Shown here in pieces: positions 3,326 through 15,942 of a stretch of DNA of 64,000 nt. Position 1 is the first letter of the stretch. Each line of letters opens with the position of its first letter. The stretch spans positions 3,916,518-3,980,517 of the forward strand of contig NZ_JACBZP010000001.1 in assembly GCF_013409065.1 (NCBI RefSeq), read 5' to 3'. This DNA is from Spelaeicoccus albus (GTDB taxonomy: Bacteria; Actinomycetota; Actinomycetes; Actinomycetales; Brevibacteriaceae). Under the pieces are notes generated by a model, which worked only from the letters and a program-made list of their open reading frames with translations, made no database searches and was not told where the DNA came from. The position numbers and the translations under genes were made by a program.

Positions 3326-6820
<3,495 letters not shown>

Positions 6821-7151: not shown

Positions 7152-8402
7152 TCACAGGCTTCCCCGCGTCGCGATCTCCTTCGTCACGGTGTCGACCAGA
7201 TCTGCGCCGGTCGCTCCGAACAGTGTACTCGCCCAGACGCTCTGCCGCGTGAAATACGGCGCGTCGCCGTCGTTCAGCCACGCGGGCGTGCGTCCGGCTT
7301 TCAGATCGGCGGCTTCGTCTTTGGTGGCGGGGACTTCAATTGTCGCCCCGCCGGACGTCGTGATCTTGGCGGTCGTCGTCGCTTCGCCGTGCAACGGGTT
7401 CACCGAGCTGAAGGCACGCGGGCCCCGGCCCGCGGACTTTCCGCCGCTGTCGACGGCGAACAGGTCGCGTTCCGCCACCCGGAGGAGCACCATTGCCCCG
7501 GCCAGGTCGACCGCGCCGGAGTTGTCGTCGTCGACGATGCGGCCGGCCAGATCATAGGCGTCGAGGCCGTGCCGTACCCGGTCGGCTGCGTTCGCCGTCA
7601 GCGAGGTGACGTGCAATTGTTGCAGCCTGGCGGAGATTCCGAGCGTGTCGTCGGAGAGTTCCTTGCGCAGGTCGGAGCGTTGCGAGTTCCGTACGGCCGT
7701 GAGGATCCGACGGGGCATCCGGTACTTCCGGCGGCGTCCACGGACGATGAGGGCAGCAACCGCGGCAATGACGGCGATCAGCGCCAGCGATCCGTACCCG
7801 ATGATTCCGCCGACGCCGATACCCGCGTCGGTGTCGATTGACGACGGCGGCACGACAACTTGTCCGGCGTCGTCCGACGGCGCCTTCTTCGGGTGCGCCA
7901 AGAAGTTCAGAAACGTGTTCAGCGACGTCGCGGCGGGCGTGCCGGACGGCGTCTGTGCGCGCCAGTTCTTTGCCTGTTCATAAATCTGTTCGAACTGCTT
8001 CACGTCGTAGACGTCAAAGTTGACGAGACCTCCGGCCGGAACCAGGATGTACAGTCCCTTCCGACCGAGTGCGCTGTGTATCGAATCCAGCAGGTCCGTA
8101 CTGTCAACACTGTTGTCGGCGTCATCGTCTTTGACCGCGATGATGTACACCGGATAGTCGAGGCCCCGAGCCTTGTCGGCCGCCCTGTCGAGGGGCTTCT
8201 TCCCCAACGCGTCGGCAACGCCGGGCCCGACGTACAACCGCTTCTTCTGCAACACGGCGGCAATGCCGGCGGCTTCGCTGCTTGGCGCCCCCGGCCGAAC
8301 GGTCCCGCCGGCCGGCACGAATGTCACGAGCACCAACAGCAATGCGGCAATCGCGATCACCGGTGCCACCCGCCCGCGCGCGACGAGCTGTCTATTTGTC
8401 AT
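7152..8402 (-). CDS. Membrane protein with extracytoplasmic domain and degenerate Cys/His module (cluster gene 5)
   Basis: A 416-residue protein of unknown function, last in a five-gene unit. It has an N-terminal signal or membrane segment (about 12-32), an extracytoplasmic domain of about 170 residues that loosely resembles TPM-like domains (alternating strands such as VYIIAVK and GLYILVP), a second membrane helix near 210-230, and a C-terminal cytoplasmic module shared with genes 1, 2 and 3 of the cluster. The module keeps the VNPLHG motif and the VW-x4-LFG-x2-G-x-DLV ending, but all three expected cysteines are replaced (Ser before VNPLHG; Thr and Glu at the C-x2-C pair). The start ATG at 8402 is chosen over an upstream one because AAAGGA precedes it. 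It overlaps gene 4 by 11 bases. Confidence 0.7.
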   Translation of the reverse strand: MTNRQLVARGRVAPVIAIAALLLVLVTFVPAGGTVRPGAPSSEAAGIAAVLQKKRLYVGPGVADALGKKPLDRAADKARGLDYPVYIIAVKDDDADNSVDSTDLLDSIHSALGRKGLYILVPAGGLVNFDVYDVKQFEQIYEQAKNWRAQTPSGTPAATSLNTFLNFLAHPKKAPSDDAGQVVVPPSSIDTDAGIGVGGIIGYGSLALIAVIAAVAALIVRGRRRKYRMPRRILTAVRNSQRSDLRKELSDDTLGISARLQQLHVTSLTANAADRVRHGLDAYDLAGRIVDDDNSGAVDLAGAMVLLRVAERDLFAVDSGGKSAGRGPRAFSSVNPLHGEATTTAKITTSGGATIEVPATKDEAADLKAGRTPAWLNDGDAPYFTRQSVWASTLFGATGADLVDTVTKEIATRGSL

Positions 8403-9258
8403 CGGTGCCGTCCTTTCCCGGGCCCGCTCCGGGTTTTGAGCGCGGACCGTCTCCGAGAGCGTTTTCAATCGGGATGGCGATCGCCAAGATCACTACCCCG
8501 GCAAGCAGGCCGAGGACTCCGCCAAAGACGTATCCGGCCACCGGGAATCCGGCAAGCATCATCGGAGGATCCTCGTCCTCGGTGTAGTTCGGTGCATTCG
8601 AACTGGGTTCGGACAGATCGACGGGCGGGCCTTGCTGCCATTCCTTGTGGGCAATCAAAGTGACCATCTCGGACAGCACCGCCGACACGGATGCTCCGCT
8701 CTCCGCGCCGGAGCGGCTTTCCGCCGCCTCCCTGGCATCCGTTTGAATGAAGCCGGCAGAGGTGAGTGCCACGTTGTTCGCGGCAAGGTAGAAGTCGTTG
8801 GAAGTTGCTACGACCACGACGCCCGTCAGTCCGGATTTCGCAGCCACGCGCCGGGCGAGCAGTTCCATATCGGCGCGGGATTCGTCATAGGCGTTCTCGG
8901 GCGTCACGACGACGTCGATGGACTTGTCCAGCGCTTTGATTTTCTTGGCGAGCTGCACCTGCTGCGGGTTGCTGACAACCGTTCGCATCATCGGATGGAC
9001 GACGACCGGGCTCTTGTCGAGCTTGGCCACTATCCGATCGACCCGGGTGTGGTCGTAGTCGGGGATTGTCACGGCGGATGACTCTTCCGACGGCGGATCG
9101 GGAGGCATGGCACCGATCAGCCCGCCGGTCGCCACCACCGAAAGGACGAATGCCGCTACGACCGAGCCGAGAACTATCGCCGCGCGGCGGAGGGCTCGCT
9201 TGTCCGCCGCGGACGCCTTTCGGTTGGCCTGCTTTTTGCGTTTCTTTGCTCCGCTCAC
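8392..9258 (-). CDS. Bitopic membrane protein of unknown function (cluster gene 4)
   Basis: A 288-residue protein. It has a basic N-terminus, a membrane helix at about 26-50, an extracytoplasmic domain of about 180 residues and a second helix near 240-268 followed by a short charged tail. The ectodomain resembles those of genes 3 and 5 in layout (strand-helix alternation with IDVVVTPENAY and TGVVVVATSNDF), but the protein lacks the C-terminal Cys/His module of its four neighbours. The start is GTG, and GTGA overlaps the stop of gene 3, which points to translational coupling. I do not recognise a characterised family; a TPM-like fold is a guess. Confidence 0.7.
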   Translation of the reverse strand: MSGAKKRKKQANRKASAADKRALRRAAIVLGSVVAAFVLSVVATGGLIGAMPPDPPSEESSAVTIPDYDHTRVDRIVAKLDKSPVVVHPMMRTVVSNPQQVQLAKKIKALDKSIDVVVTPENAYDESRADMELLARRVAAKSGLTGVVVVATSNDFYLAANNVALTSAGFIQTDAREAAESRSGAESGASVSAVLSEMVTLIAHKEWQQGPPVDLSEPSSNAPNYTEDEDPPMMLAGFPVAGYVFGGVLGLLAGVVILAIAIPIENALGDGPRSKPGAGPGKDGTDDK

Positions 9259-10607
9259 GTCGTCGCCCTCGCTTCGGCGTCGACCTGGACGATAGTCTCG
9301 GCCAGATTCTCAAAAGCCCCGAACCCGGATCGGGCGTAAAACACGTCGTCCAGAGCCCAGTACGGCTTGACGCGTCTGCCCACGCGCACCGCCAGGGACG
9401 CGGGGCGGCGGCGACGCTTCAGATCCGCCGAACAGGTTTTACATGCCGGCACATCGAGCCATTGACGGCTTTCTCCCCGCCAGCGGGCCTCCGCGGCGGC
9501 CCGGCCGTGCAACGGGTTGAAGAAGCAATGCTCGTGCCGGTGCGGACCGCCGGGCTTCGTCGTGTCCGAGCGCCCGGTGACCGCTCGGTGGGCGAGCCGG
9601 GCATCGTCGGCAAGCACCAGCAATGCGGCGTCCTTGCGCGCGTCGTCCGGGAACCGTCCGGACGTCAGGACGCTTGCCGCCTTGTCGATAGTCATGATCG
9701 CGTCCCGCGCGTCCAGCTGCGCCTGACCGGTCGGTTCCGACTCGATGACGTCGTCGGCGATCCGGCGAATGTCGGCCTCGGCCTTGCGTACGGACCGCTG
9801 CTGCTTCGCGCTCAACTCGGTCGGCGTCAAGCCACGTCCGGCACGCGCACGCAGCCGTATCAACATCACTGCTCCGGCCAACGCCAGTCCGGTGAGGATC
9901 AGCGTGATGAGGTTCGGCCCGTCGGGGTCCATCCAGTAGTCGAAGTTCGAATTGGCAAGAAACGGCGGGGCTTCCGCATCGTTCGGTTTCGGCGGGTCCT
10001 CGCCGGCTTGGGCGTTGCCGACGCTGCGGATGCCGTAGCTGACGACCGAAGCCGGGTGACCGGTATCGACGCCCTGCGGGAAGTGCGACGTCGCCGACGC
10101 GGAAACCCCGTCGGCGTCGACCCAATACGAATTAGGCTCCCAGCGCCCGTAGTGCGTGGCAGTGGCCAAAATGACTACCGCCGATTCGCGGTGAAGGCTT
10201 GCTACCGCGTCCCCGGCGACTCCCGCCATGACGGGTCGGGTATCCGACAGCAGAAGCGGATCGTCCGTGTCTTCGCCGATCTCCGGCAAGAGCGCGACAT
10301 AGACATGGTCGGCCTGCGCGTCGTCGATCGCCCGATGAATGGCTCGTATCTGCGACCGGGTGGCCGCGGCGCCGACTATGTCGTCGACGAACAACGGGTC
10401 CTTGCGCCATCCGGCAACGACCTCTTTCGTCAAACTCCGGCGAACCGACGCCAGCGCGGTCGATTTGTCTGCCCGTACGACTTCCGTGCCGACGGCCTGC
10501 GCCGAGACCGCCGGGCCCGTTGCGGCGGCCGCCGTCGGAATGCACACCAATGCGGCCGCAGCGACAAGCGCGGCGAGTTGGACGGTGATCTGCCGATGTC
10601 GGCTCAT
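9255..10607 (-). CDS. Membrane protein with extracytoplasmic domain and Cys/His module (cluster gene 3)
   Basis: A 450-residue protein. A signal peptide-like segment (about 7-30, ending near AAAATGPA) leads to an ectodomain of about 200 residues, one membrane helix near 240-258, and a cytoplasmic module. The module contains CFFNPLHG, then VPACKTCSADL, then a conserved segment ending in VGRRVKPYW and SGFGAF. The C-x5-H and C-x2-C pairs could form one metal site (inference). Its module is closest to that of gene 1 (shared RPxSL and RVGRR-type segments). The start ATG at 10607 is chosen because ATGA overlaps the stop of gene 2. The function is unknown. Confidence 0.7.
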   Translation of the reverse strand: MSRHRQITVQLAALVAAAALVCIPTAAAATGPAVSAQAVGTEVVRADKSTALASVRRSLTKEVVAGWRKDPLFVDDIVGAAATRSQIRAIHRAIDDAQADHVYVALLPEIGEDTDDPLLLSDTRPVMAGVAGDAVASLHRESAVVILATATHYGRWEPNSYWVDADGVSASATSHFPQGVDTGHPASVVSYGIRSVGNAQAGEDPPKPNDAEAPPFLANSNFDYWMDPDGPNLITLILTGLALAGAVMLIRLRARAGRGLTPTELSAKQQRSVRKAEADIRRIADDVIESEPTGQAQLDARDAIMTIDKAASVLTSGRFPDDARKDAALLVLADDARLAHRAVTGRSDTTKPGGPHRHEHCFFNPLHGRAAAEARWRGESRQWLDVPACKTCSADLKRRRRPASLAVRVGRRVKPYWALDDVFYARSGFGAFENLAETIVQVDAEARATT

Positions 10608-11338
10608 TCGCCGCTGCCTTCCGCTCGGGTCACCGCTGCGACAAGATCGACGCCCGCGGAGCCGAAGAGGGTACGGGCCCACACCGTGCCGCCTTCGACG
10701 TACGGAGCATTGGCGTCATAAAGCCAATCCGGTGTTCGGCCCGCGTCAAGCGCGCGTGCGCACGTCCGACAGGCCCGCAAATGCTGGCTGTGGCCGCTGG
10801 AGCCTTCGAGCACTGCGTCATGAGTCGCGTCGCCGTGCAATGGGTTCACCGCGCACAAAATTGCCGAAGCGGTGCGCTTTCGGCCGGATCGCACGATTTC
10901 GAGATCCTGCTCGGCGATCCGGGTCAGGACGAGCGCTCCGGCCATGTCCACGGTCCGGGGGCTGTCCTCGTCCACAATGCCGCTGGCCAGGGAATAGGCG
11001 TCGAGGCCGTGCGTGATGGTCCGGGCCGTCTCGGCATCGATGTCATCGGTCTTGCACGATTCGAGTTCCGCGGCAACGTTCAAGGTGTTCGTCGACAAAC
11101 GTTGCCGCAGTGCGTCGCGCTGCGATTGCCGAGCCGCATTGACGACGGCGTCCGGAATCTTGAAGCGGCGACTGTTGGCGCGATGCTTGTTCACGAGGTG
11201 GACGATCAACGCGACGATGCCGGCGATGATGGCCGCCAGCACGACGATGACGATAAGCCCCAACCACCCGTCGGACGAGTCGGAGGAGTCGGCGGCAAGG
11301 AAGCCCGCGTGCCCGAGTTGACGGCTAACCACGCTCAT
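10604..11338 (-). CDS. Single-pass membrane protein with Cys/His module (cluster gene 2)
   Basis: A 244-residue protein consisting of one membrane helix (about 25-48, WLGLIVIVVLAAIIAGIVAL) and the shared module (about 58-240). The module has a helical front half with GLDAYSLASGIVDED and DMAGALVLTRIAEQDL, then CAVNPLHG, then LRACRTCARAL, GRTPDWLYD, and VWARTLFG-x2-GVDLV. It is essentially the module plus an anchor, the simplest member of the set, and its module is closest to the degenerate one in gene 5. It overlaps gene 1 by 14 bases. The function is unknown. Confidence 0.7.
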   Translation of the reverse strand: MSVVSRQLGHAGFLAADSSDSSDGWLGLIVIVVLAAIIAGIVALIVHLVNKHRANSRRFKIPDAVVNAARQSQRDALRQRLSTNTLNVAAELESCKTDDIDAETARTITHGLDAYSLASGIVDEDSPRTVDMAGALVLTRIAEQDLEIVRSGRKRTASAILCAVNPLHGDATHDAVLEGSSGHSQHLRACRTCARALDAGRTPDWLYDANAPYVEGGTVWARTLFGSAGVDLVAAVTRAEGSGE

Positions 11339-12458
11339 GAGACCTCACTGAATCGACAGTCTTCTTCACTGTTCGCACGATCAGCAAGCATAACAAGATC
11401 GGCAGGCAGCCTAAGCCGCCGAGGACCAGGCCGACCAGCAGCCCGATGAAGACGCCGTATCCCGGAACGCCGAAGAGGAGCACGTGGCCGTGCGCGGAGC
11501 CGGTCAACGGCTTAGTGCCCACCGTGACGAACGCGCCGATGGCCCCGGCAAGCAACGCCACGCCGATCGGAAGCAGGCGGTGGCCCTTGCGGCCGGGTCG
11601 GGAGTGCGAACGCCGCCGCAAGCGAAAGTTCGTCTTGTCCGGTTTGTCGGCCGCTCGAAGTTCGTCGGCGGTCGATACGGCGTCGACCAGATCGCCGAAT
11701 GCGCCAAACCCCGTCTTGGTGAACACGCCGTCGCGCACGGTCCAGTACGGAACGACCTTCCGGCCGCGGCGCACGCCGAGCGAACGCGGCCGGTCATCGC
11801 TTCCCAGGGCGCGCGCGCACTCACTGCACACCGGCACGCGCACGCTTTCCGGGGTGTCCGCCCGCCACGCCCAGTCGCTGTAGGCGACATGATGCATGGG
11901 ATCGAAGAAACACGCACGGGGCACATCATGATGCGCACCATCGGATTCGAGCGCGGCTGCGTGGAACTCGGCCAACCGGCCGAACACGACGAGCGCGGTG
12001 ATCTTCCGGCCGTCGCCGGTGCCCCACGGATCGCCGAGGATCTCGGCGGCGGTCGCGATATCGATCAACCGGCGCCGGCTCGCCAATTGAGCGGGCGACA
12101 CGTCGTCGTCCGACTTCATCAGTTCTCGTGCGCGCCGCGCGCCGGCGCGCACATCGGCCAGCGCCAGTGACGCCCGGCGTCTGGCCTGCGGATCGAGCCG
12201 GGTGCGGAACGGCGGCTTCACGCGCCCCCGTTGTCGGTCGACTTCGTAGAGCGTGAACGCCACGACAGTTCCCGGGATGACGAGCAGCGCGCACCACAGC
12301 AACGTGGCCTCATATTTGGCGTGATAGCTCAACGCGATGAAATGAGCCGACGCGTCGGCCGGGGAAGCAAAAGCCATGCATGCGGCAGCGGCCACGAGGA
12401 GCATCGCTCCCCCGGCGCGTACGGCTGCCCGCCGGTATTGCATCGGATTACCGGCCAC
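11325..12458 (-). CDS. Multi-pass membrane protein with Cys/His module (cluster gene 1)
   Basis: A 377-residue protein, first of the five overlapping genes. It has two N-terminal membrane segments (about 14-34 and 51-72), the shared module in the middle (about 95-265, with CFFDPMHH, then VPVCSECARAL, VRRGRKVVPYW and TGFGAF), and two to three C-terminal helices (about 295-370). The start is GTG at 12458 with GGGGAG 8 bases upstream; an ATG five codons further in is an alternative. A bidirectional terminator separates it from rplL, so it probably has its own promoter; only a weak TATTCT is visible close to the terminator. The function is unknown. Confidence 0.7.
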   Translation of the reverse strand: MAGNPMQYRRAAVRAGGAMLLVAAAACMAFASPADASAHFIALSYHAKYEATLLWCALLVIPGTVVAFTLYEVDRQRGRVKPPFRTRLDPQARRRASLALADVRAGARRARELMKSDDDVSPAQLASRRRLIDIATAAEILGDPWGTGDGRKITALVVFGRLAEFHAAALESDGAHHDVPRACFFDPMHHVAYSDWAWRADTPESVRVPVCSECARALGSDDRPRSLGVRRGRKVVPYWTVRDGVFTKTGFGAFGDLVDAVSTADELRAADKPDKTNFRLRRRSHSRPGRKGHRLLPIGVALLAGAIGAFVTVGTKPLTGSAHGHVLLFGVPGYGVFIGLLVGLVLGGLGCLPILLCLLIVRTVKKTVDSVRSHERG

Positions 12459-12526: not shown

Positions 12527-12563
12527 AAAGGGGAGCCCCGAATCAGATTCGGGGCTCCCCTTT
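12527..12563. terminator. Bidirectional terminator after rplL
   Basis: A perfect inverted repeat with an 18-bp stem (AAAGGGGAGCCCCGAATC and its complement) around a single central base, flanked by A/T runs on both sides. It ends the rplJL transcript and isolates it from the membrane-protein cluster. Confidence 0.9.
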
Positions 12564-12582: not shown

Positions 12583-12972
12583 TTACTTCAAGGTAACCGT
12601 CGCGCCCGCGCCTTCGAGCTGAGCCTTGGCCTTCTCGGCGGTGTCCTTGTCGACGCCCTCGAGGACGTTCTTCGGGGCACCGTCGACCAGGTCCTTGGCT
12701 TCCTTGAGTCCGAGCGAGGTCAGCGTGCGGACCTCCTTGATGACCGGGACCTTCTTGTCGCCGGCGGCTTCGAGGACGACGTCGAACTCGTCCTTCTCTT
12801 CCTCGGCTTCGGCAGCGCCGCCGTTTCCGCCGGCAGCCGGGGCCGCAGCGGCGACCGGAGCGGCCGCGGTGACCTCGAAGGTCTCTTCGAACTTCTTCAC
12901 GAAGTCGGAGAGTTCGATAAGGGAGAGCTCCTTGAACGCGTCAAGCAGTTCGTCAGTGGTGAGCTTCGCCAT
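12583..12972 (-). CDS. rplL: 50S ribosomal protein L7/L12
   Basis: The ribosomal stalk protein that recruits translation GTPases, 129 residues. An N-terminal dimerisation helix region ([15 protein letters not shown]), an Ala/Gly-rich hinge (about 38-55) and the C-terminal domain with [18 protein letters not shown] and [13 protein letters not shown] are all present. The start ATG at 12972 is chosen because GGAAGGA precedes it and the sequence MAKL fits the family. It lies 122 bases downstream of rplJ. Confidence 0.97.
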
Positions 12973-14036: not shown

Positions 14037-14831
14037 ATGGCTGCCGACGGCACTCGAAAGGCTCGTAATTCACGCATGGATGCGCTCTCCAATTTCATCA
14101 TGGACGCCGCCAATTCCTATTGGCTGTTTCCCATCTTGGCGCTGTGCATCGCCTTCGACGCCTGCTTCCCGTCGTTTCCATCGGAAACCGCAGTCGTCTC
14201 ATTGTCCGCACTTGCCGCATCGACGAGCTCGCCGAACATCGCGGCAATCGGCGTCTCGGCCGCGTTCGGCGCGTTTTTCGGCGATAACGTGGCCTATTGG
14301 CTCGGCCGGAGCTTTCACCCGGAAAAGTGGCCGATCATGCGCCGCCCCAAGGCCCAGCGGGCCCTCGAACGAGCGAGGTCCGGGCTTGCCGACCGGGCTC
14401 CCCTGTTCATCATCACCGCCCGATTCGTGCCGTTCGTCCGGCTTGCCGTGAACATCACGGCGGGCGCCACCAAATTCCGCTGGGGCAGGTTCCTACCGAT
14501 CTCCGCTGGGGCCGGCATCGCGTGGGCGGGGTACTCGGTCTGCGTCGGCGCGATCGCGGGCAGCTGGGCACAAGTGCATCCGCTGCTCAGCGTGGGAGTT
14601 GCGATCGCCGTCGCCATAGTTCTCGGGCTCATCATCAATTGGGCCGTCGAGCGATTGTTCGCCCGGCGTGCGCAGTCTCAGGCGAACTCTCGAACTACGG
14701 CCAAGGCACGGTCCCGGGCACGGTCCGGCTCTCCCGCCGGAATAGTTGATCGGGACGACGCGATAGCTGCGGACGAGACCACTACGATCGAGGCGCCGGC
14801 GCACCGGGCATCGGATTGCGTCAAGAAATAG
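14037..14831 (+). CDS. DedA family membrane protein
   Basis: A 264-residue member of the DedA/VTT family, integral membrane proteins implicated in undecaprenyl-phosphate and phospholipid flipping. Visible hallmarks are FPSFPSETAVV near the N-terminus, GAFFGDNVAYWLGR, and the FITARFVPFVRLAVNITAGATKF-type region with conserved Arg residues, followed by two more helices and a basic, disordered tail. The -10-like GATACT at 14026-14031 lies only 5 bases before ATG 14037 and no ribosome-binding site is visible, so it is probably leaderless; GTG at 14034 and a later ATG at 14076 are alternatives. Its end overlaps the convergent GNAT gene by 11 bases. Confidence 0.85.
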   Translation: MAADGTRKARNSRMDALSNFIMDAANSYWLFPILALCIAFDACFPSFPSETAVVSLSALAASTSSPNIAAIGVSAAFGAFFGDNVAYWLGRSFHPEKWPIMRRPKAQRALERARSGLADRAPLFIITARFVPFVRLAVNITAGATKFRWGRFLPISAGAGIAWAGYSVCVGAIAGSWAQVHPLLSVGVAIAVAIVLGLIINWAVERLFARRAQSQANSRTTAKARSRARSGSPAGIVDRDDAIAADETTTIEAPAHRASDCVKK

Positions 14832-15942
14832 CGTTCATGCGCTTTTGCCACTGAGCACACCAGCCGGCCGTTGTGAATCCCAGTGCCACGTTGACCGACA
14901 ACATGTACGAGTTCTCGGCGGCGTTCCACGTGTGGACTCGTCGCACAGCCGGCCGCGCGGCAGCCAGCCTGCGCAAATTCCCGGTCTTCACGAACTGACC
15001 GAGCTTGCGCCCGCGATGCTCGGCGAGAACGAGCGTGTCGTTTTGAAACGCAATAGTCTCGTCATGATCGGGCACCACTATCTCGGTGAAGCCGACAAGT
15101 CGCCCGGACGGCACGTGCTCGGCTGCGCAGACCAGCGCAGTGCGCCTCTGCTGACGAAGTGTCGACTCGTTGTCGCGCACGCGTGCGGCGTCCCAACTCT
15201 CCTCGACGGCCTCGATGCCGGCGGACGGCGCGTCGGTGCTCATGCGCGTGCTCAACCATGCCAGGTCGTCGACCCATTCGTCCGGGCAGCGGTCGGTCCA
15301 GGTCACGAGTCGATAGTCGTGCGGCGCATTTGCCCGCCCGATCGCTTCGGCTTCGAGTCGCGCCACCAGCCGGGCGTCCGCCGGCATCGGCAGCACGCTG
15401 TAGCGTTCGACCTGCTCGAGCACGAATCCGCGGGCCAACGCAAACCGCGCCGCGGCATCATCCGGAATCTCCCCGACTCCGGATTTGGCTCTCACATCGC
15501 GACGCCCGCAGGCGGTGCCGGCCGGATGATCCGAATCCGACACAAGCACGGACCGTCCGTTCCGACGACAGAATTCGGTGAGCGCGACAAACAACGCCGA
15601 GCCGATACCCTGCCGCCTCCGGTCCGGGAGAACCGCCACGTGCGCGCGGGCCCGATCGGTGTCGTCGACCAGCGATCGGCCTATCGACGCGCGGCCGACC
15701 ACCAGATCGCCGTCCCAGGCCAGCAGCCTGTCGATACGGCTGTATTCCTCGTGGGCCAGTTCGGCAAATCGCTCGCGCGCCGTATGCACGAGGTCGGTAT
15801 AACCGAAATCGGTGAGGGCGCACTCCCGCTCCAGTGCAATCAGGCCGTGGAGGCCGGCGGCGTCCGCGTCGTCCAGCGATCGCGGCCGGGCCATCGGCTC
15901 GATGACGATGCCGTTTCGCTCAAAGTTCACCTCGGTGGTCAT
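14821..15942 (-). CDS. Tandem GNAT-family acetyltransferase
   Basis: A 373-residue protein made of two GNAT folds. The first has an acetyl-CoA binding stretch at about residues 108-117 (VLPDRRRQGIGSAL). The second has a weaker version near 307-318 (LAEHRGRKLGQFV) followed by NAAENSYMLSVNVALGF, a typical GNAT C-terminal helix. The substrate cannot be read from the sequence. It is the only gene on its transcript, between rplA and the convergent dedA gene. Confidence 0.8.
   Translation of the reverse strand: MTTEVNFERNGIVIEPMARPRSLDDADAAGLHGLIALERECALTDFGYTDLVHTARERFAELAHEEYSRIDRLLAWDGDLVVGRASIGRSLVDDTDRARAHVAVLPDRRRQGIGSALFVALTEFCRRNGRSVLVSDSDHPAGTACGRRDVRAKSGVGEIPDDAAARFALARGFVLEQVERYSVLPMPADARLVARLEAEAIGRANAPHDYRLVTWTDRCPDEWVDDLAWLSTRMSTDAPSAGIEAVEESWDAARVRDNESTLRQQRRTALVCAAEHVPSGRLVGFTEIVVPDHDETIAFQNDTLVLAEHRGRKLGQFVKTGNLRRLAAARPAVRRVHTWNAAENSYMLSVNVALGFTTAGWCAQWQKRMNAIS

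Follow-up and report, generated by a model that had tools for sequence, protein, structure and literature searches.

Proteins of the TPM type (PF04536), including AtTLP18.3, Psb32, cg2496 and BA41, are among the closest described systems to the locus considered here. TLP18.3 acts in photosystem II repair according to one report (PMC13089150), and two others place PRSAF1 at the bc1/aa3 complex interface (PMC7719681) and describe its lipid contacts (PMC11189923). One group has also proposed TPM domains as helpers in the assembly of membrane-linked complexes (PMC11237479, PMC12419801). We analysed a 64,000-nucleotide stretch of the Spelaeicoccus albus genome (hereafter the window), in which five minus-strand genes lying between rplL (12583-12972) and rpoB (3326-6820) encode membrane proteins that combine ectodomains of TPM-like predicted fold with a putative transmembrane zinc module. 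This combination, in a cassette for which the searched family libraries hold no model, appears new.

The five genes, named P5 to P1 from the rplL side, overlap one another by 14, 4, 4 and 11 bases, in agreement with the original prediction for this stretch. Domain profiles built from relatives resolved two units in their products, namely an ectodomain and a module that comprises a helical region and a Cys/His part. P3 (A; 9255-10607) and P1 (C; 7152-8402) both run from a signal-like transmembrane (TM) segment through an ectodomain and a second TM segment into the module, and P2 (B; 8392-9258) consists of a TM segment, an ectodomain and another TM segment without the module. P4 (C'; 10604-11338) passes directly from a TM segment to the module, and P5 (A'; 11325-12458) does the same and then adds two further TM segments, which, judged by eye, are likely of B-like origin. 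Ectodomains were thus placed in P3 (E1, 10062-10427), P2 (E2, 8674-9039) and P1 (E3, 7920-8270) and found in neither P4 nor P5, as expected from the earlier claim that three of the proteins carry extracytoplasmic domains; E1 and E3 were also recognized by structure comparison, and E2, without a predicted structure, by the profile common to the other two. Because of this unit order across P1-P5, the window holds a full A-B-C cassette (P3-P2-P1) together with a second copy that lacks ectodomains, in which P5 corresponds to A' and P4 to C'.

We compared the predicted structure of P1 (416 residues; mean predicted local distance difference test score, pLDDT, 79.5; ectodomain blocks above 90 save one) with 996 PDB chains using VIA-align, and the top five Z scores all belonged to TPM entries (2kpt, 12.1 over 113 residues at 2.6 Å; 5anp, 11.6; 7tbr, 11.2; 3ptj, 11.0; 3pvh, 10.8), of which 3ptj and 3pvh are one protein, AtTLP18.3. 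Psb32 (8c7i, Z 10.0) ranked seventh, after a helical match, and chain 6adq_J reached Z 8.9. The leading Z scores of the P3 model (mean pLDDT 73.6) were likewise to TPM entries (5anp, 8.4; 3pvh, 8.3; 3ptj, 8.1), and by these scores both predicted ectodomains have the TPM fold, a Rossmann-like sheet with flanking helices. A profile-profile comparison of the ectodomain with TPM gave 84.5% over 62 columns, a weak match in the expected register, compared with 9.2% for the reversed TPM profile and 0.3% for the module. The ectodomains resemble the TPM proteins in predicted fold, but differ from them in having no PF04536 match, in being linked through a TM segment to a Cys/His module, and in occurring three per cassette. 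MSMEG_4692, a DUF5130 protein and subunit of the mycobacterial III2IV2 supercomplex, which we take to be PRSAF1, shares with the window proteins an actinobacterial origin and the TPM fold (chain 6adq_J above); however, its chain of 157 residues leaves no room for a Cys/His module as well, and a TPM profile finds it but not the window proteins. The C-family profile matched no MSMEG_4692-type PDB chain up to E 5.

Family searches returned little for these proteins. P1-P5 were all without a match above the curated cut-offs of Pfam and NCBIfam, and at E 0.01 a Pfam search of 30 C-family members had no match, while the same search of 25 A-family members had a single one, a stray Metal_resist match at 1.1e-4. 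A PDB sequence search with P3 gave nothing, or sub-threshold matches. PADLOC and PHROGs yielded no family for any of the five proteins at E ≤ 0.01, giving no sign of anti-phage defence or phage gene membership, and a plasmid origin was rejected as P3 had no plasmid match. Our literature search found no publication on this family and no match to the module motif strings, within a coverage that leaves out most subscription journals.

The original prediction assigned the Cys/His module to four proteins. Its fold and ending are indeed kept in P5 (11676-12191), P4 (10631-11125), P3 (9291-9809) and P1 (7185-7685), whereas the ligands are kept in only three: the motifs are CFFDPMHH in P5, CAVNPLHG in P4 and CFFNPLHG in P3, each with all four ligands, and the P1 counterpart reads SSVNPLHG ... 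PATKDEA, with S, H, T and E at the ligand columns and the cysteines thereby lost. This reading was unique to P1 among 128 distinct module copies, many of which come from close relatives and are not independent events; the C-x5-H ... C-x2-C columns read CHCC in 112 of them and CHCD in 8, and the other 8 were degenerate or partial. Two or more ligands were also missing from the A-module of three fused A+B proteins (L045, 7452-9683; L047, 7813-10101; L049, 7137-9233). In the P3 model, C361 and H367 precede a beta-hairpin (strands 372-376 and 384-388), after which C389-x2-C392 starts a helix (390-397), and this is the treble-clef order of ligand pair, hairpin and helix with the second pair. The structure comparisons used full-length P1 and P3 models, and the VIA-align rows barely cover the module. 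The cytoplasmic module is thus probably treble-clef-like and zinc-binding, as modelled. It shares with treble-clef zinc fingers the ligand pair, the hairpin and the helix opening with C-x2-C, but its first pair, C-x5-H, is unusual, the first pair of a treble clef usually being C-x2-C, and no Pfam model matches the module proteins. Matches of the helical region to the DnaK lid and 2pmr (VIA-align Z ~8-10) were discounted, helical bundles of this kind being common.

We further examined membrane orientation in 110 distinct proteins with both ectodomain and module, one of which was dropped because it had no clear TM segment. Lysine and arginine were commoner after the TM segment than before it in 106 of the remaining 109 (28/28 with an N-terminal hydrophobic segment; 78/81 without). 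Since these residues are richer on the module side, the ectodomain is predicted to lie outside and the module inside the cell, and the arrangement first proposed was thereby supported. In the 81 proteins without a signal-like segment, either the N-terminal domain would cross the membrane without one or the called start may be wrong.

The view of the cluster as a set of paralogues was supported by searches of the own genome, in which P5 matched P3 (E 6.5e-23) and P3 matched P5 (E 2.6e-21), both above chance; identity was 44% between P1 and P4 and 29% between P3 and P5. A module tree of 65 rows paired P3 with P5 (96/88) and placed P1 and P4 within the Brevibacteriaceae C clade (100/99), apart from the single-gene relatives termed family D (100/100). 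P5-P4 is read as a second copy, particular to this lineage, of just the inner half. The senegalense lineage (L041/L142) likewise has an A' without an ectodomain; because this A' clusters (100/98) with A proteins from its own lineage and from a close relative, ectodomain trimming probably happened at least twice, as far as the tree can tell. The ratio of nonsynonymous to synonymous substitution rates (Ka/Ks) was 0.16-0.34 in every one of 12 gene pairs chosen by hand from the Brevibacterium A, B or C sets, and relatives of the cluster genes are therefore under purifying selection by this measure.

Whether the genes co-occur outside this genome had been set as a test of the original prediction, and they do: the cassette is conserved in other actinobacteria. 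A search with P5 alone was positive (E 0.001) for 30 of 60 genomes of the same family. With the C profile, in a draw of 396 genomes from the order, 27 of the 35 same-family genomes matched (G021 among them as a broken remnant only), and none of the other 361 gave a convincing match when four candidates per genome were scored. Marginal matches in G031, G214 and G382 (E ~5e-4) were rejected as they aligned on a TM segment, and the genes concerned appeared by eye to encode LPXTG-like surface proteins and, within a locus for metal transport, a membrane protein. Scanning of named genomes returned 33 loci (29 Brevibacterium, 2 Nocardiopsis, 1 Actinomadura and 1 Streptomonospora), Brevibacterium belonging to the Micrococcales and Nocardiopsis and Actinomadura to the Streptosporangiales. 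B. aurantiacum ATCC 9175 is among the carriers (L144). At E 1e-10, a ten-row C profile was matched by 75 of the 197 genomes searched from the class, a tally that mixes cassette and D-type proteins. Among 20 loci hand-picked from these C-profile matches, 19 had three ectodomains in adjacent genes, and L203 had two by our gene calling. The cassette comes in two arrangements, A-B-C as in the window and one with E1, E2 plus module and E3 plus module as in Nocardiopsis, and fusions occur.

Family D, a single-gene family of Actinomycetota with the same module, was found in 117 of 296 class genomes (E 0.001) and, in a draw from the phylum, in 12 of 149 genomes at E 1e-10, 8 of them outside the class. 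Its members resemble the cassette proteins in the helical region and module, and the long form has an ectodomain and TM segment too; they differ in a Gly/Asp-rich tail in most copies shown, in an Asp often found at the fourth ligand, and in their separate module clade. The D gene of S. albus itself (L036, 8232-8942; C1:264234-264938) lies in a neighbourhood common to Brevibacteriaceae loci, with groEL- and cspA-like genes near it (by eye). The family thus reaches further, and is older, than the window by itself could show.

The position beside rpoB was less constant than the cassette. Whether relatives carry the cluster at the same site had been set as a check, and they do in 24 of the 29 Brevibacterium loci, where the cassette directly follows rplL (with rpoB beyond it in 23, and a contig ending first in one), but not in the other 5, where it follows rplA (2) or lies elsewhere (3). 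Outside the order the cassette adjoins other genes (accA-type or, by eye, aconitase, ileS and gap/whiA), and a location next to rpoB is typical of a single lineage. In single species the C gene is broken or interrupted (L136, in pieces at 8263-9174; G021:C1:3651467-3651729; G014:C57:7957-9168), and in L130 the A gene is uncalled.

The proposed co-expression with the core translation and transcription genes was not supported in its original form. A 17-bp hairpin separates rplL from P5 on the minus strand (12527-12563); the 83 nt around it fold at -46.2 kcal/mol (z -6.5; 0/200 shuffles as stable), and the 50 nt that hold the hairpin at -34.1 kcal/mol. All 25 relatives studied (L116-L136, L138 and L142-L144; Brevibacteriaceae) had a 50-base segment at or below -26.7 kcal/mol within 180 bases after rplL, counted by a fold-energy threshold without shuffle control, and their stem sequences differ. 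With rplL followed by a strong hairpin both here and in 25/25 relatives, co-expression of the cluster with rplJL appears doubtful; termination after rplL would follow from stem strength alone, as the promoter and terminator consensus scan did not list the hairpin as a terminator, its tail in the window being poor in T. One promoter-like site precedes rpoB (7135-7107), among two found in the region where 0.5 were expected. A search for known RNA families around the cluster had no matches, and this possibility was rejected.

We then clustered 354 neighbour proteins from 31 loci. Three clusters extended over three families. One is a biotin carboxylase (8 loci); the other two, identified by eye, resemble a flavin adenine dinucleotide (FAD) disulfide reductase (7) and an acyl-CoA dehydrogenase (3). 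A large cluster from families f35 and f38 (9 loci) was ignored since it is headed by an apparently miscalled antisense frame. In 6 of the 20 hand-picked loci, from three families (L184, L188, L190, L194, L198 and L199), an accA-type biotin carboxylase gene lay immediately upstream of the cassette and on its strand, that of L184 being a fragment at a contig end. A D gene was present in the DNA retrieved around 6 of these 20 loci (L184, L187, L188, L190, L194 and L199). The FAD disulfide-reductase-like gene was near the cassette or D in L146, L184, L187, L188, L190, L194 and L199, and Ser/Thr-kinase-like genes, by eye, were near the cassette in L145, L185, L186, L200 and L201 (5/31 loci; families f35 and f37). 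Within the window, GNAT acetyltransferase and VTT/DedA-type genes lie between rplA and rplJ (14076-15942). Three Brevibacterium loci (L042, L043 and L055) carry a GNAT relative between the cassette and rpoB, with a metallo-beta-lactamase-fold gene in the two that were scanned for it (L042 and L043). Both the rplA-rplJ gap and the cassette-rpoB gap seem prone to insertion.

Because TPM proteins act on membrane complexes, we tentatively favour, by analogy, a TPM-type scaffold for the assembly or quality control of membrane complexes, its zinc module facing the cytoplasm. Such a scaffold, itself a membrane complex with all members from one actinobacterial family, would present TPM-like domains outside, followed by one TM helix, a cytoplasmic helical bundle and a treble-clef-like zinc module. 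The three ectodomains would clasp a membrane protein complex at its outer face, much as AtTLP18.3/Psb32 (photosystem II) and MSMEG_4692 (respiratory supercomplex) do, the zinc module would hold or recruit partners inside, and P4 would probably supply the zinc-bearing module lost by P1. Several results weigh against this scaffold. No target complex emerged, as the three-family neighbour clusters of the 31 loci hold no membrane complex. The ectodomain is TPM-like in its modelled fold, yet it is not assigned to PF04536 because that profile finds nothing even at E 10 (no match in the own genome at E ≤ 10, and none in 30 C or 25 A members at E ≤ 0.01). Foldseek gave no significant E-value (the lowest for P1 was 0.35, and its match to 5anp had probability 0.95), the Foldseek list for P3 is led by TolB rather than TPM, and a common fold does not prove function. 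Finally, 7 of the 35 same-family genomes in the order draw were without a C match and an eighth (G031) had a false match only, and, as broken copies occur besides, the cassette is dispensable in some lineages.

The main rival, which we consider unlikely but the most serious of those weighed, is a transmembrane sensor whose ectodomains would detect an envelope condition and whose zinc module would signal to a cytoplasmic regulator. The receptor-like layout of outside domain, single TM segment, helical linker and inside module fits this, as do the kinase-like genes near the cassette in 5/31 loci, whereas no regulator-like cluster was among those seen in three families, the clusters in fewer families being only partly named. 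The varying site and gene order, the copies missing or broken in some species and the fast divergence of the paralogues would suit a fast-evolving accessory locus in a variable chromosome stretch, with no dedicated membrane-complex role (for example, in a surface structure or transport); this appears rather improbable, as the three-gene cassette is kept outside the order and shows purifying selection and near-invariant ligands. We regard as still less probable a metal-handling system, in which the Cys/His modules would serve a membrane partner by sensing or storing zinc (or a thiol redox state). Near-invariance of C, H, C and C, the single Metal_resist match and the metallo-beta-lactamase-fold gene adjoining the cassette in both same-family loci scanned would agree with such metal handling, but four ligands in treble-clef-like order usually mark structural zinc, two or more ligands are lost in P1 and in the three fused A proteins, and no metal transporter or regulator was among the neighbour clusters seen in three families. 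An enzymatic role of the ectodomains, as acid phosphatases like the one claimed for AtTLP18.3, seems the least plausible of all: it would be consistent with the fold match to AtTLP18.3, with an acid phosphatase activity named in the title of a reference cited in PMC13089150, and with D69, D125 and R137, which are kept in or beside the ectodomain in 9/9 B proteins, but the A and C families have no invariant polar ectodomain column, and later authors consider a phosphatase role unlikely (PMC12419801).

A broader form of the scaffold proposal, which we hold more loosely, is that the cassette could represent an undescribed, actinobacteria-wide transmembrane machine, in which three ectodomains of the TPM type, connected across the membrane with zinc modules, would be devoted to assembling or repairing a major membrane complex; some lineages would have added further copies of the inner zinc half by itself. 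The locus is a conserved multi-gene membrane system, unmodelled by the searched family libraries and traced beyond its own order. Its predicted ectodomain fold ties genes otherwise called 'hypothetical' to photosystem II assembly and repair proteins and to a mycobacterial respiratory supercomplex subunit, and may thus offer a concrete, testable guess about their function.

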